A DNA stretch of 32,382 nt, from positions 1 through 32,382 of the forward strand of contig CAIQPO010000067.1 in assembly GCA_903873735.1 (NCBI GenBank). Direction: 5' to 3'. The position numbers were made by a program, and so were the translations under genes. This document shows positions 4,640-28,096 of the stretch, one piece after another. The notes under the pieces were generated by a model. That model did not search any database. It was not told the origin of the DNA and saw nothing but the letters and a program-made list of their open reading frames with translations. How positions within the stretch are numbered: position 1 is the stretch's first letter; every line of letters begins with the position of its first letter. Source of the DNA: Candidatus Collierbacteria bacterium (GTDB lineage: Bacteria > Patescibacteriota > Microgenomatia > UBA1400 > MFAQ01).

Positions 4640-5320
4640 ATGAAATATCACTACGACGAACTTAATCGAAATCCATTTGAGTCACACATGCTCGCAATTG
4701 ACTCAATTAAATCAAATACTAGTATTTTGGATATTGGATGTGCCACTGGTTATTTTGCTAAAGAGCTAGCTAAAAAGGGCTGTGAAACATATGGCGTTGA
4801 TAAGGATAGAATTGCCCTAAAAAAAGCTTCAAAATACTGTAAAGAAGTCATCCAGTGTGATCTAGACAATATCAAGATTTGCCACGCTCCCAAGAAACAC
4901 TTCGATTATGTTCTGATGCTTGATGTTTTAGAGCATCTTCAAAATCCAAAACTAGCTATTTCCCAAGTAGGAAAATTTTTGAAAAAAGATGGAAGATTGG
5001 TTGTTTCAGTTCCAAATATTGCTCATGCGTCTATAAGATGGGGTCTGCTTAAGGGAGATTTTGACTATACAAACACTGGAATTCTAGACTCTACCCATGT
5101 CCACTTCTACACCCTAAAAAGTATTTCCAGACTTCTTGAAAAGGAGGGGTTTAGGATATTGAAAATCAAACCCACAAACGGAATGTGCAAGGTTCCCTTC
5201 TTGTATAAAATTACCGATAGATTGCCAGCTACCTGGCAATACAAACTCGTCCAGAAATTTCCAAATTTATTTGCATACCAATTTATTATTATCTCTCGCC
5301 CAATCAAGCCCTTAAAGTGA
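4640..5320 (+). CDS. Class I SAM-dependent methyltransferase
   Basis: ILDIGCATGYFAKELAKKG motif I and MLDVLEHLQNP. Confidence 0.9.
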   Translation: MKYHYDELNRNPFESHMLAIDSIKSNTSILDIGCATGYFAKELAKKGCETYGVDKDRIALKKASKYCKEVIQCDLDNIKICHAPKKHFDYVLMLDVLEHLQNPKLAISQVGKFLKKDGRLVVSVPNIAHASIRWGLLKGDFDYTNTGILDSTHVHFYTLKSISRLLEKEGFRILKIKPTNGMCKVPFLYKITDRLPATWQYKLVQKFPNLFAYQFIIISRPIKPLK

Positions 5321-6678
5321 AAAAAATTAAATTTTTGCTCATAAATGCTATAGATATCTCAAAGTCATTGCAAACTTCTCTGCCACCGCTCGGTCTTGGA
5401 TATTTGGCATCTTCTCTTAGAAGAAAATATGGTGAAAAACTAATTAAGTTTAAAATTATTGATCGTGATGTTCTACAAGAAATCCAAAATTTTAAACCAG
5501 ACCTCGTTGGGATTACCTGTGTTTCTCAAAATTATAACTATGCAAAAGAATACGCTCATGCCGCCAGGCGTTTCAAAGTACCAGTAATTATTGGTGGTAT
5601 TCATATTACCGTTCTACCAAACACCCTATCGAAGGATATGGATGTCGCAGTCCTGGGAGAAGGAGAAGAAACGATTCTAGACCTCTTTGATGTTTTCATC
5701 CAAACGCGAAAATTTTCTCCAAAAAATCTGAAAAGCATCAGAGGCATCGCATACAGAGACGCAGGAAAAATCATCCAAAATGAAAAAAGACCACCGATAT
5801 CCGACATGGACTCAATTCCACTCCCAGCAAGAGATTTAATGAAGATAGAAAAATGTACCCATGTGTTTTCATCAAGAGGTTGTCCTTATCGCTGCGTGTT
5901 TTGTGCCTCATCGAGATTTTGGAATAGTACCAGATTTTTTTCTGCAGAATATGTTGTCAAAGAAATTAAATACTTATACGAAAATTATGGTGTTAGGGAA
6001 ATCGACTTCTGGGATGACTTGTTTATTGTCAACCGCCAAAGGATAAAAAACATTATCAAGCTACTAAAAGAAGAAAACTTACTTGGAAAGCTTAGATTTA
6101 GCTGCGCAGTACGATCAAACCTGATAGATGAAAACATGGCATCACTACTTAAGGAACTTAATGTGAAGGGTGTATCGATGGGTCTAGAATCAGGGACACC
6201 TGAAATATTAAATTTCCTAAAAGGTCATACTGTAAAAATTGAGGATCACAAACGAGCAATTCGAATATTTAAAGAAAATGGAATAGAGCCTAGTGCCTCA
6301 TTTATTATTGGATCTCCTCAAGAGACAAGAGAACAAATAATGAATACCTTCAACTTCATCCGAGAGAGTAAACTAAGAGGTTTTGGGGTGTATGTCCTCA
6401 CACCACTACCGGGGACACCAATCTGGGATTACGCTAAAGAAAAAGGCTTTGTGGATGAGAAAATAGATTGGAGCAGATTGAATGTTGAGTTTATGGATAA
6501 TCATCAAGATGCAATTATTCTCTCAGAAACTCTTTCAAGGGACGAAATATATGAAATGATGCGCAAATTCAAAGCGGAGCAAAAACGAAGAGAAATTCTA
6601 GATTATGTAAAGCATCCAAAAAATATACTCCGTAAAGCATACCACCAGGCAAAAAAATATCTTTCTGTCAATTCCTAA
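5317..6678 (+). CDS. B12-binding-domain radical SAM protein
   Basis: N-terminal PPLGLGYLASSLRR...IIGGIHITVLP B12-binding style domain; RGCPYRCVFC CX3CX2C cluster; GTG start overlapping the upstream TGA. Confidence 0.93.
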   Translation: MKKIKFLLINAIDISKSLQTSLPPLGLGYLASSLRRKYGEKLIKFKIIDRDVLQEIQNFKPDLVGITCVSQNYNYAKEYAHAARRFKVPVIIGGIHITVLPNTLSKDMDVAVLGEGEETILDLFDVFIQTRKFSPKNLKSIRGIAYRDAGKIIQNEKRPPISDMDSIPLPARDLMKIEKCTHVFSSRGCPYRCVFCASSRFWNSTRFFSAEYVVKEIKYLYENYGVREIDFWDDLFIVNRQRIKNIIKLLKEENLLGKLRFSCAVRSNLIDENMASLLKELNVKGVSMGLESGTPEILNFLKGHTVKIEDHKRAIRIFKENGIEPSASFIIGSPQETREQIMNTFNFIRESKLRGFGVYVLTPLPGTPIWDYAKEKGFVDEKIDWSRLNVEFMDNHQDAIILSETLSRDEIYEMMRKFKAEQKRREILDYVKHPKNILRKAYHQAKKYLSVNS

Positions 6679-15795: not shown

Positions 15796-18639
15796 ATGCC
15801 CATAGATTTACGTGCCCTAATCGAGCCAAAAACGGTTGCGGTAATAGGAGCCTCTAGATCACCAGAAAAAGTTGGAGCTATAGCTCTAAAAAACATTCTG
15901 GAATCAGGCTTTACCGGTACCATTTATCCAATTAATCCCAATTCCGAAGAGATATCTGGCTTAAAGTGTTACCCAGATATTGCCTCACTTCCAGAAATCG
16001 TGGATGTTGGCGTTATTGCTCTCCCCACCGAACTTGCTATCGAGTCACTAAAAAATCTTGGAGAAAAAGGTGTAAAAAACGCCGTCATCTTTACTGCAGG
16101 ATTTAAAGAAATTGGACCCGCGGGGGAGATACTTGAGGAACAGCTAAAAGCCATTGCCAATCAGTATCAGATAAATATCATTGGTCCTAATTGCCTAGGT
16201 TTTGCCAACAACGACTTACCCATAAACATCACATTCGGACGCATAGTCAAACAGTCAGGAAATCTTCGTGTCATTTCACAGTCTGGAGCTTTAGCCACTA
16301 GCCTCTTCGACTGGTGCCAAGCTAGCAATCTAGGTTTTAGTCAATTTATTACCATCGGCAACAAAACCGTTATCAATGAAAATCACTTACTGGAATACTT
16401 CGAAGCCAATCCAGGATCAAAAAACACCTCCCCAGGCATGTCTGATGTCCACCCTATTGGTTTGTATCTAGAGTCTATAAGCGATGGCAGAGAATTCATA
16501 AAAATTGCTTCAAAAATTACTTCTAAAAATCCAATTTTTATCCTCAAGCCAGGAAAGTCGAAAGCTGCCGCCCAATCAATGAGGTCGCATACAGGATCCA
16601 TCGCTGGTGCAGACTCTGTGCTAGATATTGCCTTAAAAGAGGCGGGTGTTATTCGCTGTCACGAGTTGGGTGATTTCTTCGATCTAGCAAGAGGTTTTGC
16701 TTGGGAAAAATGCCCTTCGGGTCCAAGAGTTGCAGTCATATCAAATGCTGGTGGTCCGGCAGTTTTAAGTACCGACACAATTTCAGAAGTTGGACTTGAA
16801 TTGGCAGATCTATCTCAAGACGCAAGAGGCAAACTCTCCGATTTTTTACCTAGAATGGCCAGCTTCTTAAACCCAATTGATGTTTTGGGTGACGCTCTTG
16901 CCGACAGATTTGGTCAAGCCTTGGAGATAGTCTTACAAGAGAGTTCAGTTGACTCTGTCGTCGTAATCCTCACCCCTCAGCTAATGACCCAGATTGCCAA
17001 AACTGCAGAAATCATTAGCGATCTCTCCAAAAAATATCATCAGCCCATTATGTGCTCCTTTATTGGAGGTGGCCTCACTGCCGAAGGTGAAAGCATTCTA
17101 AATAATAATCGAATTCCCAGTTTTCCTTTCCCAGAAAGGGCGATAAAGACTTTAGCTGCCATGTACCACTGGCATCTTTTTAAGAATAGGGCACAAGACA
17201 ATGATATTGTCTGTCAAATTCCTGCTCCAGATATTTCATCAGCCAAGTCCATCATTATTTCTGCCCAATCAAAAAATTTACCCGGTCTTGATGGCTTTGA
17301 AGGTGAATCACTTTTGAGGTCGGTAGGTATTCCTACCCCCCAATCACAAATAGTCGTCGACGAAAACGAGGCTTCAATATTTGGCGAAGAAAATAGTTTC
17401 CCCATTTTGATCAAAGCCGCCTCCCCCAATCTCCTCCATAAGGCGGAAATTGGTGGGGTGGTGGCAAACCTAAACGACAGAGATTCGGTCGTTCGTGAAT
17501 GGCATGCCCTTTGGCAGAGGATTGATTCAAAAGCTTCAGATATCAAACCTTCTATTAGAATTCAAGCACAAAAACAAATACCAGTTAGTCATGAGTTAAT
17601 TGTTGGAGTAAAAAGAGATCCTACTTTTGGCAATGTTGTCTTGTTTGGTGCAGGAGGAAAGTTGGCGGAGCTAATTCAAGACCGCAATCTGGCGCTTGGT
17701 CCACTTACAGAGACAAAGGCTAGGACTCTCATAGAAAAATCCAAAGCGTTCAAGTTACTATCAGGCTTCAGAGGCGAAGAGCCATTCGACTTAAACCCCA
17801 TTGTTGATGTACTCATTAAACTATCTTCACTGGCCGACTCTTGCCCATCAATTAAGGAAATTGAAATTAATCCCTTGATTGTAAACAGAGATGGAGTTTC
17901 TGCCGTTGATGTTAAAACCATTTTCACCGATACTAAAGAAACCATGCCCGGACCAAAATTCAAAAACGCCACTGTAATTACTCACAAAACTCTTGCCAGC
18001 ACATTTCACTATTTCCTACTTAAGCCAGATGAGCCACTCAGCTTTACTGCCGGACAGTTTATCAGCATCAAGGTTTCCGATACTAAGCTAAACTCTTACT
18101 CCATCGCCGGCCAAACCCCTGACAAAAACATAGAGTTGATTATCGACACTGCTCCCGGGGGAGTTGGTTCCCAGTTTTTCGAGAAAGTAGTTGAAGGTCA
18201 AAAGCTAGAATTCCTTGGTAGCTTTGGCTGTTTTACCTACAAAGAAGATGATTCAGAAAACTTGGTTTTTCTTGCCACTGGTTCAGGTATTAGTCCCTTA
18301 AGGGCGATGATCCACGACCTGCTAGCAAACAACAAAACTTCAAAACCAATTACCCTTTACTTCGGTATGCGCTTCCAAGCCGACATCATACTCAGAGAGG
18401 AATTTGAGTCACTTGCTGCTGCACATCCAAATTTCAACTTCAAGCTTTGCCTTTCTAGGCCAGAGCCAGACTGGACCGGACTTCATGGCCACATTACCGA
18501 TATCTTAAATCAAGACTATCCCGACAAAACCAAAATTTCCGCATACATCTGTGGGGGGAAATCTATGGTGGAAGAATCAAATAAAATTCTCCTGGAAGGC
18601 GGCTGTCCCGAAAAACATATTTATCAAGAAAAATATTAA
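15796..18639 (+). CDS. ADP-forming acyl-CoA synthetase (alpha-beta) fused to C-terminal FNR-type flavin/NAD(P) reductase domain
   Basis: CoA-binding VAVIGASRSPEKVG, ligase-CoA SHTGSIAGAD, ATP-grasp GIPTPQ...PILIKAASPNLLHKAEIGGV, then AGQFISIKV...YSIAG...ATGSGISPLRAM...GMRFQADIILREEFE...YICGGKSMVEE. Confidence 0.93.
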   Translation: MPIDLRALIEPKTVAVIGASRSPEKVGAIALKNILESGFTGTIYPINPNSEEISGLKCYPDIASLPEIVDVGVIALPTELAIESLKNLGEKGVKNAVIFTAGFKEIGPAGEILEEQLKAIANQYQINIIGPNCLGFANNDLPINITFGRIVKQSGNLRVISQSGALATSLFDWCQASNLGFSQFITIGNKTVINENHLLEYFEANPGSKNTSPGMSDVHPIGLYLESISDGREFIKIASKITSKNPIFILKPGKSKAAAQSMRSHTGSIAGADSVLDIALKEAGVIRCHELGDFFDLARGFAWEKCPSGPRVAVISNAGGPAVLSTDTISEVGLELADLSQDARGKLSDFLPRMASFLNPIDVLGDALADRFGQALEIVLQESSVDSVVVILTPQLMTQIAKTAEIISDLSKKYHQPIMCSFIGGGLTAEGESILNNNRIPSFPFPERAIKTLAAMYHWHLFKNRAQDNDIVCQIPAPDISSAKSIIISAQSKNLPGLDGFEGESLLRSVGIPTPQSQIVVDENEASIFGEENSFPILIKAASPNLLHKAEIGGVVANLNDRDSVVREWHALWQRIDSKASDIKPSIRIQAQKQIPVSHELIVGVKRDPTFGNVVLFGAGGKLAELIQDRNLALGPLTETKARTLIEKSKAFKLLSGFRGEEPFDLNPIVDVLIKLSSLADSCPSIKEIEINPLIVNRDGVSAVDVKTIFTDTKETMPGPKFKNATVITHKTLASTFHYFLLKPDEPLSFTAGQFISIKVSDTKLNSYSIAGQTPDKNIELIIDTAPGGVGSQFFEKVVEGQKLEFLGSFGCFTYKEDDSENLVFLATGSGISPLRAMIHDLLANNKTSKPITLYFGMRFQADIILREEFESLAAAHPNFNFKLCLSRPEPDWTGLHGHITDILNQDYPDKTKISAYICGGKSMVEESNKILLEGGCPEKHIYQEKY

Positions 18640-20364
18640 ATGGATCAATCAATCTCATATTCTCTCAAGATAGGTGGGCAGGCGGGGCAGGGTGTTAAGT
18701 CGGCGGGTTTGGTCTTTTCCAAAATTGCCGTGAGATCTGGCTACAACATCTTCAACTATGTTGAGTATCCTTCTCTCATTAAAGGTGGACACAACGTAAT
18801 TCAAACCATCTTCTCCGAGGATGTCGTAAATAGTCCAGTACAGAGTGTAAATTTTTTAATTGCTCTAGATCTTGCGACAATCAAGATTCATCAGCCAGAG
18901 CTGGTAAATCAGGCGGGAATTGTTTATGAAGAAGAGGCCAATTACGACCTAGGAGATCTCTCCACTAAAACAAGGTTATTCCCCATACCTCTCAAAAAAA
19001 TTGCCAAAGAATCAGGAGCACCTGAAATCGCCTCAAACTACGTTGCCATGGGGGCGACAGTGTCACTTCTTGGGGCCGAATTTGCTCTCCTTAAGGACCT
19101 AATCGCAGAAGACCTCGCCGGAAAAGACATTTCACTAATCGAAGCCAACCAAAAGGCCGCCGAAACCGGATTCAACTACGCCGAAGAAAAATTTGCCTTT
19201 GGCTTTGAACATATTCTCCAAAAAAGAGATGTTGTTTCACCCAAAATGGTTATCAATGGCAACGAAGCTATTGCCTTTGCCGCTATCTCAGCCGGTCTGC
19301 AATTCGCTTCCATATATCCCATGTCTCCTGTATCAAATGTAATGCATGTACTGGCTGCCAATCAAAGAAAATATGGCTATATTTTCAAACAAGCCGAAGA
19401 TGAAATATCTGCTATAAACATGAGCATAGGTGCTTCATTTGCCGGAGCTAGATCAATGACCTCCACATCAGGCGGAGGATTCTGCCTTATGACTGAAGGT
19501 TACGGACTTGCTGGCATGACCGAAACTCCGTTGGTCATTATTGAAGGTATGAGAGCAGGGCCAGCCACAGGTATGCCAACTTGGAGCGAGCAAGGAGACC
19601 TGCGCTTTATTCTTCACTCCCACCAAGGTGAGTTCCCCAGGATAGTCTTGGCCGCCGGAGATCCAAAAGAAGCCTTTTATCTCACCCAAGAAGCCTTCAA
19701 TCTCGCTGATAAATACCAAACCCCAGTGGTAGTAATTACCGACAAAAATATCTGCGACAGCGAGCAAAGTTACGAAGATTTTGATTACTCAAACTATCGT
19801 ATTGATAGAGGCCAAACCACCACTGTTATCGACTCTGAATACAAAAGATACCAAATCACCCAATCAGGGGTTTCCCCTAGGTCATTCCCTGGTTTTGGTA
19901 ATCATTTCATCGGCAACTCCGACGAACACACCGAGTTTGGTTACGATACTGAAACCATTTCCGACAGAAATGCCCAGATGGAAAAGAGATTAAAAAAACT
20001 AGATCTTTGCGCCAAAGAGGATATGGCAGCTCCAGAGATTTTTGGTCCTGCCGACGCTGATATTACCCTAGTTTCCTGGGGAAGTACCAAAGGAGGTGTC
20101 CTTGAGGCACTCAAAAGACACCCCAATGTAAATTATGTACATGTAAAGTGGCTTAGTCCTTTTCCAGTCGGTCCTCTAAAAGAAATTCTTGAGAGGGCTA
20201 AGTATCTAATTGCCGTAGAAGCAAGTAGCACCAGTCAGCTAGCAGGTCTTATACGCGAAAAAACCGGTGTCGACATCCTCGACAAATTACTGAAAAACGA
20301 TGGCAGGCCATTTTTCCCCGAAGAAATTTCCGACAGGATTACCAGTGTTTTAACTTCAAAATGA
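18640..20364 (+). CDS. 2-oxoacid:acceptor oxidoreductase, fused gamma-alpha subunit
   Basis: GGQAGQGVKSAGLVFSKIAVRSGY gamma domain plus GNEAIAFAAISAGLQFASIYPMSPVS alpha domain. Confidence 0.95.
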   Translation: MDQSISYSLKIGGQAGQGVKSAGLVFSKIAVRSGYNIFNYVEYPSLIKGGHNVIQTIFSEDVVNSPVQSVNFLIALDLATIKIHQPELVNQAGIVYEEEANYDLGDLSTKTRLFPIPLKKIAKESGAPEIASNYVAMGATVSLLGAEFALLKDLIAEDLAGKDISLIEANQKAAETGFNYAEEKFAFGFEHILQKRDVVSPKMVINGNEAIAFAAISAGLQFASIYPMSPVSNVMHVLAANQRKYGYIFKQAEDEISAINMSIGASFAGARSMTSTSGGGFCLMTEGYGLAGMTETPLVIIEGMRAGPATGMPTWSEQGDLRFILHSHQGEFPRIVLAAGDPKEAFYLTQEAFNLADKYQTPVVVITDKNICDSEQSYEDFDYSNYRIDRGQTTTVIDSEYKRYQITQSGVSPRSFPGFGNHFIGNSDEHTEFGYDTETISDRNAQMEKRLKKLDLCAKEDMAAPEIFGPADADITLVSWGSTKGGVLEALKRHPNVNYVHVKWLSPFPVGPLKEILERAKYLIAVEASSTSQLAGLIREKTGVDILDKLLKNDGRPFFPEEISDRITSVLTSK

Positions 20365-21218
20365 CCACTCTACAAGATCTAGCAACTCCCATCACTCCAA
20401 ATTTCTGCCCCGGCTGTGGCAACTTCGGTATCTGGGCGGCTTTCAAAAATGCAGCCGTCAAAGCTGGTTGGGACAACCACAACACCGTTTTCACTGCCGG
20501 CATTGGCTGTCATGGTCACATGGTCAACTTCGTCAAACTAACCTCTTTTGAAGGCCTACATGGTCGAGCTATCCCTGTCGCTAGTGGCATGAAATTTGCC
20601 AATCACGCGCTAAATGTTTTTGTCTTTACCGGAGATGGGGACTGTCTGGGAGAGGGTGGTAATCACTTCATTCACGCCTGCAGGCGCAACCACAACATCA
20701 CCATTCTTCTCCACAACAACAGTATTTATGGCCTAACCACCGGTCAAACCTCGCCAGCTACCTACAAAGGTCAGAAAACCAAATCTACCCCTGATGGTAA
20801 CCCAGACGAGCCATTCCTGGTTTCGCATTTAGCGGTTGCTGCTGGTGCCACTTTTGTCGCCAGAGGGTTTACAGGTGACATTGCCGGACTTACAGACTTA
20901 ATGATTGCAGCCAACAACCATCAAGGACTTTCGGTGGTAGAAATTCTTCAACCCTGCGTCACCTTTAATAAAGAGTGTTCTCCCTCGTTTTACATGGAAA
21001 ATACCTACAAACTTCCAGAAGATTACGATCCTGAAAACAAAGCTCTTGCTCTAGCCAAAGCCATTGAATGGGGGCCAAAACAAATTCCCCTTGGCATAAT
21101 TTATCGCCAAAACAGACCAGTTGCAGAAAGCGAATTCCCTCAAATTGCCGAAAATACTTTGATTAGTAAAGAGGCAAGTGTGAGAGATATCAGCGAGCTC
21201 TTTACCAAACAACATTAA
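20361..21218 (+). CDS. 2-oxoacid:acceptor oxidoreductase, TPP-binding beta subunit
   Basis: FCPGCGNFGIW, GIGCHG, GDGDCLGEGGNHFIHACRRN TPP motif; ATGA overlap with upstream gene. Confidence 0.95.
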   Translation: MTTLQDLATPITPNFCPGCGNFGIWAAFKNAAVKAGWDNHNTVFTAGIGCHGHMVNFVKLTSFEGLHGRAIPVASGMKFANHALNVFVFTGDGDCLGEGGNHFIHACRRNHNITILLHNNSIYGLTTGQTSPATYKGQKTKSTPDGNPDEPFLVSHLAVAAGATFVARGFTGDIAGLTDLMIAANNHQGLSVVEILQPCVTFNKECSPSFYMENTYKLPEDYDPENKALALAKAIEWGPKQIPLGIIYRQNRPVAESEFPQIAENTLISKEASVRDISELFTKQH

Positions 21219-21237: not shown

Positions 21238-21510
21238 ATGGACGATCAAAACCAAACCCAAACACCACAAGACAAGGAAGTACAAATTGGCAAATACAAG
21301 GTAAAAGTAATACGCAGTATGTGTATCGGTGCTGGCACTTGCATTGCCGTCTCCCCAAACATCTTCAAGCTTGATGAAGAAAACAAAGCAATTATTCTAG
21401 AAGGCAACACCGATACAGAGGCTAATATTCTTATGGCAGCCCAAGCTTGTCCAGTTAGAGCGGTTGAAATTGTAGACACCGAAACAGGTCAAAAAGTCTG
21501 GCCCATCTAA
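21238..21510 (+). CDS. Small ferredoxin, CX5C...CP type ([3Fe-4S]-like)
   Basis: CIGAGTCIAVSPNIFKLDEE...AAQACPVRAVEI. Confidence 0.85.
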   Translation: MDDQNQTQTPQDKEVQIGKYKVKVIRSMCIGAGTCIAVSPNIFKLDEENKAIILEGNTDTEANILMAAQACPVRAVEIVDTETGQKVWPI

Positions 21511-22223
21511 CTTATTAAACCACTCTCCACGACCAAGCTATTCCAGTATCTGATACTTTCCATTTCATATTGGGAAATTTTTTGAGTCACAAATCCCAAG
21601 TGCACAGCCACGAAGTCTCCCATTTCCAAAGTGGTTACTAAATCAGGATCAAGAATTTCCACAATCCGTTTAGTTCCCATTTGGAATCTTTCATCATTTT
21701 TCATCAACCAGTCTCTTTCGACTACCACCTTACCATCACCAAATTTCTGAACAATACCAGCGCCCACCATGCACTTGTTTATCACCGCCAGCCTCTCGTT
21801 AAAGCCATAATCGGTTGCAGCTACTAGAGCTACCTGGCTAAAATGAGTTAAATAAATCTCTCTGGGTAGTACTCTATTCAAGGCATCGGCAAAAGGCTTC
21901 CCCATATTTTTCTCATATGCTTCAACTAGATATTTTCTCCCTTCAGCTGATTTCATAGCCAGGTCTCCACCCAGCCAGTAACTCCTTACCACTTCCGGGT
22001 CGTATGAATCTTTTCCTCTTAACTTTCCAATTGCCTCGACAAAGGAATTCAAATGGGGAAAGCCGTGGTTTTCCAAAATTTCTCTAGCTGTCTCTTCGCC
22101 CTCTACACCAGCAAGAAACTGCCTTAAAACCTTCTGACACTGATCGTCACCACAAAAGCCTAGCATGTTTGGCTGAAGTGCATACCTGGCAGCAATCTCA
22201 ATTCCTACTTTTTCTTTTGTCAT
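21507..22223 (-). CDS. Hydrogenase-neighbourhood hypothetical protein (possibly DUF6390-like)
   Basis: Intact 238-aa ORF; convergent 4-bp overlap with ferredoxin; family assignment is from memory only. Confidence 0.55.
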   Translation of the reverse strand: MTKEKVGIEIAARYALQPNMLGFCGDDQCQKVLRQFLAGVEGEETAREILENHGFPHLNSFVEAIGKLRGKDSYDPEVVRSYWLGGDLAMKSAEGRKYLVEAYEKNMGKPFADALNRVLPREIYLTHFSQVALVAATDYGFNERLAVINKCMVGAGIVQKFGDGKVVVERDWLMKNDERFQMGTKRIVEILDPDLVTTLEMGDFVAVHLGFVTQKISQYEMESIRYWNSLVVESGLIS

Positions 22224-22256: not shown

Positions 22257-22652
22257 ATGAAAAATATCTACTTTTTGGGTAATGAAGATGTAGAAATAGA
22301 CAACCAAGCTACCAATGTCCTCAAACACCTAAAACCCATAAACGACACCATCTACGTCCACATAAAGCCAAATGATGATATTCCCAGTGAAGATTTTCTT
22401 ATAATTGTTGATACCGTTGTTGGTATCGACAAAATCGTCCAAATTACCGAAGAAAATCTTTCCCAATTTACTCTTCCACCTCGCACTAGCGCCCATGATT
22501 ACGATCTAGGTTTTCAGCTAAGATACCTCCACAAAATCGGTAAGGTCAAACACTTCACCATTATTGGTATACCACCTTCAAGCTCTCCAGACTACGATCT
22601 AATCCACTCAATCTTGAGAAAGTTGGTGGCGCATGACATACAAGGGTCGTAA
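22257..22652 (+). CDS. Hydrogenase maturation endopeptidase (M52/HycI-like)
   Basis: FLGNEDVEIDNQA, LIIVDTVVG, TSAHDYDLGFQLRYL...IIGIPP; next to hydrogenase large subunit. Confidence 0.75.
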   Translation: MKNIYFLGNEDVEIDNQATNVLKHLKPINDTIYVHIKPNDDIPSEDFLIIVDTVVGIDKIVQITEENLSQFTLPPRTSAHDYDLGFQLRYLHKIGKVKHFTIIGIPPSSSPDYDLIHSILRKLVAHDIQGS

Positions 22653-23893
22653 GCTCTAATTATCTTTTCGGCTTCTAGTCGAAGGACATTCTCATCCTTC
22701 TCCAGATTTTCCTGAAAATATTTTTTCAAATCATTCTCAATATTTATCTGGTTCTGTGCAGTCGGCACTATCACATCGTAATTTACGATCATTCCTTTTT
22801 CATCCACTTCTGCCAGGTGATACAGAGTGCCTCTTGGTGCTTCAATGACTCCCACTCCCACCCCGTGTTTAGCCGGGACGGTTACTGGTTTTTCTTCTAC
22901 CATAGTAATTTCCTTTAAAACATCCAAGGCGTCATCTACACAGTGAAGAATCTCAAGCGCCTGGGCTAGATTATTGTGGTACACATTGTTTGAAGGGAAA
23001 AGGGCAAGGTACTTCGCCGCATCAGCTTGTGTTCTTTTGTTTAGCAAATCTTTATTTAGGTTTATACGAGCAAGTGAGCCCACCAGATAATCTTCATGGC
23101 TGTCAGAAAAAACGTATCCCTCTGCTTGTGAATATGGAATTATCACTGACTTTAAGAAATCATGGAAGTTTTCTTCAGCTATCTTCTTACCGCTGGTATT
23201 TACCACCTGGCCCTCGATAAAATCAAATCCAGCATCATTTCTTAAAGCTAGGTAATCAGAATTCCTGGTTAGCACATCTTTACAGTTTGCAAAAGCATCA
23301 ATTCCTCGAAGCACTAAAGGGCGAATTGCCTCAAGCCTAGAGATAAGTTCTGGAAACTTAGACGCATCTGGTAAGCGCAAGAAGCCGCCTACTGTAGGCA
23401 GTGGTGCGTGTATTGCTGCTCCAGCCATTGCCACTGATAAATCATTTCCTAGTCGCTTAATGTCAAAAGAGTCGTGTAGCAATTGGTGGCCCAAGTTTCC
23501 TTCCTCATCTGGGATATCCAAGATTGAATCAATTCCAAGCAAATCAGGTAACACAAAGAAATATAGATGCAGCGCATGATCTCTAATCATCAGGCCGTCA
23601 TAAGCTAACTTACGCAGCTTTTTAGTTTGTTCAGTCACTACAATTCCTTGAGATTTCTCAATAGCCTCAATCGAGCAAAAAAGATGCGAAATTGAGCAAG
23701 TACCACAAATTCTCGACAGGAAAGACGGCACAGCCATAATAGGCCTGCCCTTTACCGCCTCTGTGTAAAATCTTCGGTAATCCTTAATAATAAATTTTAA
23801 GTCAGTTACCTTCCTCTCTTGTACCGTCACTTTCAAACCCGCAGACCCTTCAATTTTAGTAATATTTTCTATCGTAATCTCTCCTGTATGCAT
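22592..23893 (-). CDS. [NiFe] hydrogenase large subunit
   Basis: RICGTCSISH (L1) and DPCMSCATN (L2) with nine residues after the L2 terminal position. Confidence 0.95.
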   Translation of the reverse strand: MHTGEITIENITKIEGSAGLKVTVQERKVTDLKFIIKDYRRFYTEAVKGRPIMAVPSFLSRICGTCSISHLFCSIEAIEKSQGIVVTEQTKKLRKLAYDGLMIRDHALHLYFFVLPDLLGIDSILDIPDEEGNLGHQLLHDSFDIKRLGNDLSVAMAGAAIHAPLPTVGGFLRLPDASKFPELISRLEAIRPLVLRGIDAFANCKDVLTRNSDYLALRNDAGFDFIEGQVVNTSGKKIAEENFHDFLKSVIIPYSQAEGYVFSDSHEDYLVGSLARINLNKDLLNKRTQADAAKYLALFPSNNVYHNNLAQALEILHCVDDALDVLKEITMVEEKPVTVPAKHGVGVGVIEAPRGTLYHLAEVDEKGMIVNYDVIVPTAQNQINIENDLKKYFQENLEKDENVLRLEAEKIIRAYDPCMSCATNFLKIEWIRS

Positions 23894-23895
23894 AT

Positions 23896-24399
23896 TTATT
23901 GAGTTATATTAAACAATTTTAAATACTTGCCCACCGCTTCTACAAAAGCCTTTGGATCCATGGGGCAACCGTTCACCTGATCATCAACCTTTATAAAATC
24001 ACTGATTTTTTGTACATTCTTGCTGTAATCAAAGTGACACATATAAAAAGCAATTTTGTAATTTATTTCATCAGACACGAAATTATTTCTACTTGCCGAA
24101 GGCTGACCAGTACAGGCACAGGCTCCTATTGCAACCACATACTTGCTATTCTCTCTGATTTTTTTCAGCTCATTTGCTTGCACTTCCGAAGAAATTGCTC
24201 CTTCTACAAATGCCACATCCAGTCCCTCAATCCTGTTATTCGACTTCAGTGGTTTCATGTACCTAAACTCAATAAGTTTCTTCCACTCGGTCAGATGGTC
24301 GTTCAGCATTTCTGTCAGAAGTATTGTGCTATCTTCACAACAAGTAAATGAAAACCAACCTATCACCAGTTTCTTATTTGTATCCATGTTAATATCCAT
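23896..24399 (-). CDS. [NiFe] hydrogenase small subunit (minimal, 167 aa)
   Basis: GWFSFTCCEDST, VEGAISSE, VAIGACACTGQPS, NGCPMDP; directly upstream of the large subunit. Confidence 0.92.
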   Translation of the reverse strand: MDINMDTNKKLVIGWFSFTCCEDSTILLTEMLNDHLTEWKKLIEFRYMKPLKSNNRIEGLDVAFVEGAISSEVQANELKKIRENSKYVVAIGACACTGQPSASRNNFVSDEINYKIAFYMCHFDYSKNVQKISDFIKVDDQVNGCPMDPKAFVEAVGKYLKLFNITQ

Positions 24400-24921: not shown

Positions 24922-26973
24922 ATGAATCTTAGAAAAGGTCTGATTGGGTTATTCGTCCTCACCTTTTTACTGTCCGGTCTGGGGTTTGGTATGCTCATGT
25001 TGGATGAGCAGAAAGATCTCTCCAGCCGAGCGAGTGGGGGAGTTCCATCTCAAAAAAGACAAGCACTAAATGATGTAGTTTTGCTTGAAGATGCACCTTA
25101 CTGGGATGGTACTAAAGCTGGCCTACCAGTAAAAGTCACCTACAACGATACCCTCTGGCTTTCTCCCCAAGATAAAGAGCCAGTGTTTTCTCATCGCCAA
25201 AATACAATCACTGTCCGTTTTGATTTAAGTACCAACCTTACCTCCTCAGCTCTTCCAAAGCTTCTAGGAGAAAACTTTGTTTTGTATAAGAAAAATGTTG
25301 ATCCAGGAACTAGTTTGTATAAATTTTACGGAGAAACTAAAGCAGTCACCGTTTTGCCTGTAATCGACAATGTATCAGCTCTAGCAGTTGCTCCCTTGGG
25401 TACATCCCTAGATGACGTCAAAGATCTCATTTCGGGGGCTACTCCGTCAGCAGCTCTTGCCAAAGTAAAAGGCGCTAGTACTTCAAGTGATGAAAGTGCT
25501 AGGCTAGCAGCCTTAGTTCGACCATCAGTGGTGATGATTCTCACCGGTTACTGTGCTAATGCAAAATTAGGGGAGCTCCCAGGTACCGCTATCTCCGGAA
25601 AGCAATACCCATTCTGTCTAGCCGCTTCTGGTAGTGGTTTCTTCTTAAATTCTGAAGGACATATTGGTACCAATGGTCATGTGGTTAAGTTGGGTGGAGA
25701 TTCTGCCATTGTTGCTGCTGTTACCACTGGTCAGATGGATAACCTTCTTGTCGACTTTACTCAAGAATATCTCAAGCAAACCACTGGTCAGGAAGTGCCC
25801 AAAGAGCTAATTGCTCAAAAAGTCAAAGAAGCTCACAACAGCAAAGAATCCATTTATCAGCTTGCGGGGGCAATTCTACAGCTCAAAGAAAAAAACTTAC
25901 TTTCTGTCACCGACGAAAAATACAAATACTTTGTCCAAGCCGGATCCACTCCCATCACCATTTCCAAAACCACAGGAGTAAATGCAGGCGAAGATATTTT
26001 GGCTGCCCAGCTAATCGATTCTGATTACAAAGAGCTCGATATCAAGAAAGGTTTTACCTCATCAGATGTTGCCATAATCAAGGTAGAAGGCAAAGGTTTC
26101 CCAGCCCTACCTCTCGGAGATAGTTCTAAAGCTTCAGTTGGGAGCTCGCTTCAAGTCATTGGTTTTCCAGGCGTAGCAGCAGGCACTGGCAGCATGCTTC
26201 TTGATACTTCTGCCAATGCTGAACCCACAGTTACGAGAGGTGTAGTCTCTGCCCTCAAAAAAGCCAAGGGAGATCAAAAAAATCTAATCCAAACCGATGC
26301 CTCCATTACACACGGCAACAGCGGTGGTCCAGCCGTAAACGCCGATGGAGAGGTAATTGGAATAGCCACATATGGACTTACTCCGGAAGACGGAGGCGGT
26401 AACTACAACTTCCTAAGAGACATAAACGATCTAAAAGCCTTGATGGAAAAAAACAACATAAAAAATGAATCTGGAAACACTTACACATCTTGGAAGCAAG
26501 GACTCGAGAGTTTCTGGCTCAACTACTATCGCTATGCCAAGGACGACCTGTCTAAAGTAGATAATCTATATCCCATCCACCCCACCGTCGATAAATATTT
26601 AGCTGAAGCCAAAGAAAAGGTTGGTACAGCATCCGACCTTACCCCAATGTTTTCTCGTACGCAAAGAAAAATTTACATGACCATATCCGGAGTGGTAATG
26701 GCCTTCTCACTACTAGCCATAATTGTCTTGTTTGTTTTGGACAAAACTGCCAAGACTAGTCTTGCAGGTACCCTAGCCCAAGTGGGAGTTGCCTCACAAC
26801 CAACAGCTAGTCAGCCAGTGTCTACCCCCACACAGACTGCTGCATCAATGAGTCTACCACCACATCTATCAAACGAAGCTCCTCCACCCGCCCCTCCAGA
26901 AGACAGCGTTACCCATCCAGCTCCCCAGGGTGAAAATGCACCTCCACCGCCTCCTCCGGCTCAGACATTCTAA
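24922..26973 (+). CDS. Membrane-anchored trypsin-like serine protease with C-terminal TM and proline-rich tail
   Basis: N-terminal TM; GHIGTNGHVV, SSDVAIIKV, THGNSGGPAV triad motifs; TM AFSLLAIIVLFVL; PPPAPPED...APPPPPPAQTF. Confidence 0.88.
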   Translation: MNLRKGLIGLFVLTFLLSGLGFGMLMLDEQKDLSSRASGGVPSQKRQALNDVVLLEDAPYWDGTKAGLPVKVTYNDTLWLSPQDKEPVFSHRQNTITVRFDLSTNLTSSALPKLLGENFVLYKKNVDPGTSLYKFYGETKAVTVLPVIDNVSALAVAPLGTSLDDVKDLISGATPSAALAKVKGASTSSDESARLAALVRPSVVMILTGYCANAKLGELPGTAISGKQYPFCLAASGSGFFLNSEGHIGTNGHVVKLGGDSAIVAAVTTGQMDNLLVDFTQEYLKQTTGQEVPKELIAQKVKEAHNSKESIYQLAGAILQLKEKNLLSVTDEKYKYFVQAGSTPITISKTTGVNAGEDILAAQLIDSDYKELDIKKGFTSSDVAIIKVEGKGFPALPLGDSSKASVGSSLQVIGFPGVAAGTGSMLLDTSANAEPTVTRGVVSALKKAKGDQKNLIQTDASITHGNSGGPAVNADGEVIGIATYGLTPEDGGGNYNFLRDINDLKALMEKNNIKNESGNTYTSWKQGLESFWLNYYRYAKDDLSKVDNLYPIHPTVDKYLAEAKEKVGTASDLTPMFSRTQRKIYMTISGVVMAFSLLAIIVLFVLDKTAKTSLAGTLAQVGVASQPTASQPVSTPTQTAASMSLPPHLSNEAPPPAPPEDSVTHPAPQGENAPPPPPPAQTF

Positions 26974-27202: not shown

Positions 27203-28096
27203 TTGCCACAAAAGCTAATGGATAACAATCAACCGAACGGAATCAATCTAGACCCAAATCTAATCACTAACCAGGGGTTACCTCCCCAAATGCCACAAGG
27301 TCAACCTCAGTACCCTCCACAAGCCCAGTATCCTGGTTATCCTCAATATCCTCCCCAAATGCCACAGGGCCAACCTCAATACGCCGGACAAACACAATAC
27401 TACAACCAACCAAACACAGGCCAGTTACCTCCCCAAATGCCACAAGGTCAACCTCAGTACCCTCCACAAGCCCAGTATCCTGGTTATCCTCAATATCCTC
27501 CTCAAGCTTATTACCCCCAGCAATCTCCAGCACCCCAAGCACCACCCTCCACCCCTACCACCACACCAAACCCAAACTCCTTATCGGAAAAACTACTTTC
27601 TGGCGCTATAGACATTCCCAAGCCAGTAGCAGGCTCTAGTGCTCCACTCCCCAACCAACCCTCACTAATGGCAGCTCAAGAAGAAAAACCTGCCATTCAG
27701 GAAGTCCCAGAGGTTACCAGCCAACCCGCCCCAATTGTTCCCGTTCAGGTACCTCCAGCTCCTCTTGTGGTTCAGTCAGCCCCCCCAACCCCAGAAGTCC
27801 CTCCAGCTCCTCCTCAAATTACTGCCGCCCCACTTCCAGTAGTAGAAGCCAAGCCTGTAGAAGAGCCAAAAGTAGATACTCAAGCCCCGGCACCCTTAAT
27901 AGCCCCAGCTGTGGACGCTCCCCAAGCTCTTCCGGATCTCCCCCCTGCCTTGGTTAGTGACCTAGTGACCAAACAAGCAGTTCAGGATGCACCTGATGGC
28001 GCTGCCCCATCACAGAATCAAGAAAATGTTTTTACAGTTGACACCAGTAGTCCTCTCTATGAAGATCCTGATAAAGTAGTTCTTCAGAAGAAATAA
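27203..28096 (+). CDS. Pro/Gln/Tyr-rich repeat protein
   Basis: Repeated PPQMPQGQPQY(PPQAQYPGYPQYPPQ) units followed by a Pro-Ala-Val-rich region; start TTG 27203 or ATG 27218. Confidence 0.75.
   Translation: MPQKLMDNNQPNGINLDPNLITNQGLPPQMPQGQPQYPPQAQYPGYPQYPPQMPQGQPQYAGQTQYYNQPNTGQLPPQMPQGQPQYPPQAQYPGYPQYPPQAYYPQQSPAPQAPPSTPTTTPNPNSLSEKLLSGAIDIPKPVAGSSAPLPNQPSLMAAQEEKPAIQEVPEVTSQPAPIVPVQVPPAPLVVQSAPPTPEVPPAPPQITAAPLPVVEAKPVEEPKVDTQAPAPLIAPAVDAPQALPDLPPALVSDLVTKQAVQDAPDGAAPSQNQENVFTVDTSSPLYEDPDKVVLQKK
27277..27501 (+). repeat. 78-bp exact direct repeat (27277-27354 and 27424-27501)
   Basis: Identical GTTACCTCCCCAAATGCCACAAGGTCAACCTCAGTACCC...CAATATCCTCC at 147-bp spacing. Confidence 0.9.

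Follow-up and report, generated by a model that had tools for sequence, protein, structure and literature searches.

An acyl-CoA synthetase joined to a ferredoxin-reductase-type module, and its hydrogenase-linked gene cassette, in Patescibacteria

The window analysed here, a 32,382-nucleotide stretch of a Candidatus Collierbacteria contig, holds a long open reading frame that a first-pass annotation read as a complete ADP-forming acyl-CoA synthetase (ACD) fused to a full FNR-type flavin/NAD(P) reductase. This raises two questions, namely whether one protein indeed combines both modules, and what such a protein could do among the genes that surround it.

One chain with two enzyme modules

The reading frame at 15796-18639 (plus strand) is uninterrupted, encodes 947 residues and closes with a single terminal stop. 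Translation, Pfam and profile matches to solved structures all bear out the annotated fusion, which divides as follows:

15796 to 17931, plus strand: ACD half, residues ~1-712, with CoA-binding, succinyl-CoA-ligase-like, ligase-CoA and ATP-grasp_5 domains (Pfam, structure match, conserved E226, H265 and H548)
17944 to 18636, plus strand: FNR half, residues 717-947, with FAD_binding_6 and NAD_binding_1 domains and without an Fe-S cysteine motif (Pfam, profile, alignment)

Specifically, the ACD half carries CoA_binding_2 (residues 12-138, 4.5e-23), Succ_CoA_lig (155-299, 9.7e-39), Ligase_CoA_2 (312-460, 1.9e-9) and ATP-grasp_5 (497-707, 3.3e-58), with its CoA-binding, ligase-CoA and ATP-grasp_5 domains in the ACD order, and the FNR half carries FAD_binding_6 (727-815, 4.7e-8) followed by NAD_binding_1 (825-927, 3.5e-21). 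Foldseek and AF2 agree on an ACD fold for the first half, which AF2 models with confidence; the FNR half has a pLDDT below 50 because the alignment contained almost no FNR relatives. Profile searches, on the other hand, do find the FNR fold, on whose detection the annotation had made its reading depend. At the level of domain assignment, the protein is thus confirmed as a predicted complete ACD (residues ~1-712) plus, from the ferredoxin-reductase superfamily, a full FAD/NAD module (~717-947). In agreement with the annotation, which knew of no characterised example, a literature search with sparse coverage of subscription journals found no paper characterising the ACD-FNR architecture; within that literature the component parts are known and their joining is undescribed.

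The same architecture, for which the annotation had suggested a search, recurs in 21 further Patescibacteria genomes, spread over ten families besides that of the window, which gives 22 full-length genes with the window's, at 45-55% identity. Ten of these genomes come from the class sample (385 genomes) and 11 from outside the window's class in the phylum sample (389 genomes), which in addition holds one truncated copy, in G601. Within the order sample (95 genomes) the fusion occurs in the window genome only, and G013 of that sample has a 60% identical ACD interrupted by a contig end. A stop missed between two adjoining genes, as an assembly or annotation artefact, has next to no chance of explaining the fusion and is rejected, because all 21 relatives read through in one open frame of 939-975 aa free of internal stops, two of them in single-contig genomes (G571 and G120), even though adjacent separate ACD and FNR genes do exist in G232. 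The same evidence dismisses what the annotation had considered, a frameshift or lost stop around residue 705.

The 63 related loci, most of them from other phyla, include none with an ACD joined to an FNR. In the FNR tree, a single clade (95/99) unites the fused FNRs with those of the operon and excludes the FNR that most relatives encode at another place. The fusion state requires five changes on the ACD tree, four of them forced by supported branches, and three on the FNR tree, one of them forced; judged from these counts, fission, loss or transfer would all fit and cannot be told apart. The Daviesbacteria contig MFDZ01000064 and the genome G405, which belongs to the window's class, carry identical ACDs. 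In addition to the separate halves of G232, an AMP-forming synthetase gene, a solo FNR and the same downstream oxidoreductase follow one another in G275 and G097, and physical fusion is therefore not essential to the system. A flavodiiron-like gene adjoins the FNR in G021 and G032, and in G032 this gene, the FNR, the oxidoreductase and a hydrogenase lie on one contig; the flavodiiron-like protein may be an alternative FNR partner in these two genomes.

Residues and relatives of the two halves

Over residues 8-701 the protein matches 8wzu, an ADP-forming 4-hydroxybutyryl-CoA synthetase (8e-129), and the ACD profile match to the 8wzu and 4xyl type spans residues 7-707. E226, which we take to be the active-site glutamate of ACD, is kept together with H265 and H548 in all 22 aligned full-length fusions. 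H265 and H548 correspond in the alignment to H256 and H535, the histidines through which Nmar_0206 relays phosphate (PMC11494057). The window protein thereby shares its domain set, catalytic glutamate and both relay histidines with the single-chain Nmar_0206 (8wzu) and the two-subunit ACD1 of Ca. Korarchaeum (4xyl), and, unlike either, carries an extra C-terminal FNR module. The ACD family is clear and does not extend to a substrate-specific call, since the NCBIfam models for 4-hydroxybutyrate--CoA ligase (505 bits) and the acetate--CoA ligase alpha subunit (491 bits) both score below their cutoffs. Protein acetyltransferases of the PatZ type (9it0; ~880 aa), also among the top matches of the ACD half, likewise consist of an ACD-like chain plus an additional C-terminal domain; theirs is a GNAT domain, whereas that of the window protein is an FAD/NAD oxidoreductase module.

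For the FNR half, residues 724-947 match the P450 reductase 5ogx (4.8e-23), with NqrF and MmoC matching too, and the best solved matches to the FNR profile are NqrF (7qty), MmoC (1tvc), BenC (1krh) and GcoB (5ogx). All four have FAD and NAD modules in the same order as the window protein. Each of them also has its own [2Fe-2S] domain, whereas the window FNR lacks one and is joined to an acyl-CoA synthetase instead. Its four cysteines form no CxnCxxC pattern, and the C-terminal [2Fe-2S] set of the PyrK/HydG type is absent, as the annotation had read; its consequent call for an external electron partner is supported. The flavin phosphate-binding R-x-Y-S motif reads N766-x-Y-S in the window. The asparagine form occurs in 19 of the 23 fused copies (R-x-Y-S in the other four) and is common to stand-alone operon FNRs and fused FNRs; flavin binding is for this reason only predicted. 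The nucleotide motif G-x-G-x-x-P is present as G829-S-G-I-S-P834, its proline being absent in three relatives, and the C-terminal aromatic residue is retained. With FAD_binding_6 ahead of NAD_binding_1, the FNR half is a divergent member of the ferredoxin-reductase superfamily by a purely profile-based assignment.

The cassette and its hydrogenase

Downstream of the fusion, the window contains the following genes:

18640 to 20364, plus strand: 2-oxoacid:ferredoxin oxidoreductase, fused gamma-alpha, directly after the fusion stop (Pfam; TIGR03710 above cutoff)
20361 to 21218, plus strand: 2-oxoacid:ferredoxin oxidoreductase beta, with C16, C19, C50 and C199 invariant (Pfam, NCBIfam)
21238 to 21510, plus strand: single-cluster ferredoxin with three cluster cysteines (C29, C35, C71; CIGAGTC...CP) (Pfam, alignment)
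21507 to 22223, minus strand: hydrogenase-associated DUF6390 protein with a HypC/HupF-like C-terminal region (Pfam, NCBIfam, relatives' loci)
22257 to 22652, plus strand: HycI-type hydrogenase maturation protease, its 3' end overlapping the large-subunit gene (Pfam)
22592 to 23893, minus strand: [NiFe] hydrogenase large subunit, hyd2-like, with RICGTC and DPCMSC retained (Pfam, NCBIfam)
23896 to 24399, minus strand: truncated [NiFe] hydrogenase small subunit, 167 aa, with CxGC changed to CEDS (Pfam)

The fusion, the oxidoreductase gamma-alpha and beta genes and the ferredoxin form a plus-strand run, so that the ferredoxin placed in the same operon by the annotation is its fourth gene; beyond it, the DUF6390, HycI, hydrogenase large- and small-subunit and HypC-like genes are of mixed orientation. 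The oxidoreductase alpha-gamma gene adjoins the fusion at 22 of the 23 loci, with gaps of -71 to +103 nt between mechanically called ORFs, the exception being G427 (73% complete), in which it lies on another contig. It is usually followed by the three-cysteine ferredoxin and a two-subunit [NiFe] hydrogenase, and this conserved downstream order upholds the annotated tie to 2-oxoacid fermentation. In each of 26 genomes searched, the window's included, the cassette oxidoreductase is the sole POR_N protein, and acetate kinase is absent from all 26, which makes ACD or an acetyl-CoA synthetase the likely acetate/ATP step. Of the four cluster cysteines expected in the ferredoxin, the second is absent in 24 of 25 cassette relatives, and G326 has Asp in its place. 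Seventeen cassette loci share an EamA-type transporter gene (for example L166:11747-12661 and L160:15969-17003), which often sits between those for the ferredoxin and DUF6390 and is not found in the window. A promoter scan gave matches at chance level.

The large subunit has the RxCGxC and DPCxxC ligands of group 3b hydrogenases, as do all 20 sequences compared. The full-length small subunit, beta subunit and gamma subunit of group 3b are not found together with it. The small subunit measures 167 aa versus ~260 in solved sulfhydrogenase delta chains, and its proximal cluster motif CxGC reads CCEDS in the window and CxEDS in 18 of 19 sequences, with the canonical form in G032. The window genome (92% complete) has no Fer4_22 hydrogenase beta subunit and no soluble gamma candidate besides the fused FNR, its sole other NAD_binding_1 protein being of the membrane ferric-reductase type. 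As side observations, the large subunit ends in DPCMSCATN, with Asn replacing the usual His/Arg ahead of the cleaved tail in 20 of 20 sequences, and the 3' ends of the HycI (plus strand) and large-subunit (minus strand) genes overlap by 61 bases, likewise in relatives.

These traits recall hyd2 of the CPR, for which a 2020 survey gives a small subunit of mean 164 aa and "uncertain" function, no consistent gamma and beta subunits, and no proximal or same-strand NAD-binding proteins (Jaffe et al. 2020, PMC7304191). The window hydrogenase is like hyd2, so described, in its 3b-like large subunit, its small subunit of ~164 aa and the lack of a same-strand gamma or beta gene; unlike in that account, as far as its relevant passages go, it is accompanied by an ACD-FNR fusion and an oxidoreductase cassette. 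Large-subunit identities leave a gap between hyd2-like sequences (at least 68%) and other related hydrogenases (at most 52%). By this gap and by its truncated small subunit, the window enzyme appears to fit CPR hyd2 as published.

With hyd2-like large subunits counted at identities of at least 68%, fusion and hydrogenase co-occur strongly. Among the 385 class genomes, 15 have a fusion or operon FNR and 17 a hyd2-like gene (both, 13; FNR only, 2; hyd2 only, 4; neither, 366), the count for G021 resting on an FNR interrupted by a contig end. In the phylum sample of 389, 14 have a fusion and 16 a hyd2-like gene (both, 13; fusion only, 1; hyd2 only, 3; neither, 372). Fisher p values, uncorrected for relatedness, are 4.6e-19 and 1.3e-20, respectively. 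No full-length fusion occurs in those genomes of the class and phylum samples that have one of the other related hydrogenases (at most 52% identity). The fusion is present and no hydrogenase match is found in G326 (95% complete; class) and G787 (phylum), and hyd2 is consequently not obligatory; unless the hydrogenase genes of these two genomes were missed, the FNR must be of use in the absence of hyd2.

A proposed role in 2-oxoacid fermentation

We propose, at somewhat better than even chances, that the fusion is a bifunctional fermentation enzyme that would form ATP from acyl-CoA and exchange electrons of NAD(H) with the operon ferredoxin and, by way of it, with hyd2. The observed architecture, its conservation, the catalytic residues, gene order, co-occurrence and lack of acetate kinase underlie this proposal, and from them we infer all reactions, the electron partners, the use of NADH over NADPH and the net direction. 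The ACD half would convert acyl-CoA, ADP and Pi into free acid, CoA and ATP, with phosphate relayed via H265 and H548 and with acetyl-CoA from the neighbouring oxidoreductase as its most likely substrate. The FNR half would bind flavin and exchange electrons with NAD(H) on one side and the small single-cluster ferredoxin on the other; NADH is favoured because the nearest solved relatives NqrF, MmoC and BenC use it. The ferredoxin would also receive electrons from the oxidoreductase and serve the two-subunit hyd2-like [NiFe] hydrogenase, for which the FNR half may replace the absent NAD-binding gamma subunit and the ferredoxin the absent beta subunit. With the cassette as a whole, the cell would then gain ATP from a 2-oxoacid and shed the electrons, or balance them, as H2 or NADH, with hyd2 as H2 outlet or inlet. 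Such an electron path is not a textbook one, given that a canonical cysteine is missing from the ferredoxin, and canonical ligands from the hyd2 small subunit.

The direction of the reactions is the weakest point of this proposal, because an AMP-forming synthetase can replace the ACD. It is unlikely, though by no means negligibly so, that the cassette runs in reverse, with H2 (via hyd2 and ferredoxin) or NADH yielding reduced ferredoxin, the ACD spending ATP to activate acetate and the oxidoreductase acting as pyruvate synthase. Every step is reversible in principle, and the AMP-forming synthetase that in G275 and G097 precedes the stand-alone FNR and the same oxidoreductase is of a typically acetate-activating kind. 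However, ADP-forming synthetases are usually tied to acid and ATP formation, and the absence of acetate kinase from 26 of 26 genomes leaves no acetate-kinase route from acetyl-CoA to ATP. A link of an ADP-forming synthetase to acid and ATP formation is also reported in a parcubacterium (PMC5220378).

We hold it rather improbable that the FNR half is a dedicated hyd2 subunit, standing in for gamma and docked on the small subunit, with the ACD as an anchor and no role for ferredoxin. The strong co-occurrence with hyd2-like genes would suit such a subunit, as would the lack of consistent gamma and beta subunits in hyd2, seen in the window genome searches and in the survey (PMC7304191). Yet the FNR gene runs with the oxidoreductase, the structural genes of the hydrogenase being on the other strand; FNR and hydrogenase genes are separated by a conserved ferredoxin gene, and the fusion is kept in G326 and G787, which have no hydrogenase match.

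A non-catalytic FNR half, serving as a structural or redox-sensing domain that tunes the ACD by flavin or NADH state, is very improbable. It would sit where the PatZ-type ACD-like protein has a different C-terminal domain, and most copies have N-x-Y-S in place of R-x-Y-S; this replacement is, however, shared by stand-alone forms of the same clade, most copies retain GxGxxP, C-G is conserved together with the M after it, and 32 columns are invariant across ten FNRs.

Returning to the bifunctional fermentation enzyme, its position offers a concrete candidate electron partner for CPR hyd2, a matter that the 2020 survey leaves open (PMC7304191), and in tiny uncultured Patescibacteria with genomes of ~1 Mb the enzyme would join the step of 2-oxoacid fermentation that yields ATP to its redox step. 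Tentatively, and at less than even chances, we further suggest that the fusion, the three-cysteine ferredoxin and the hyd2 with its altered proximal site form a physically coupled module that replaces a classical 3b hydrogenase of four subunits as well as separate enzymes for acetate and for redox reactions; if so, this module would be one found in minimal cells.

Elsewhere in the window, a B12-binding radical SAM protein is encoded at 5317-6678 (plus strand), immediately downstream of a methyltransferase gene, and a trypsin-like protease at 24922-26973 (plus strand) is followed at 27203-28096 (plus strand) by a Pro/Gln-rich repetitive protein with no Pfam match.
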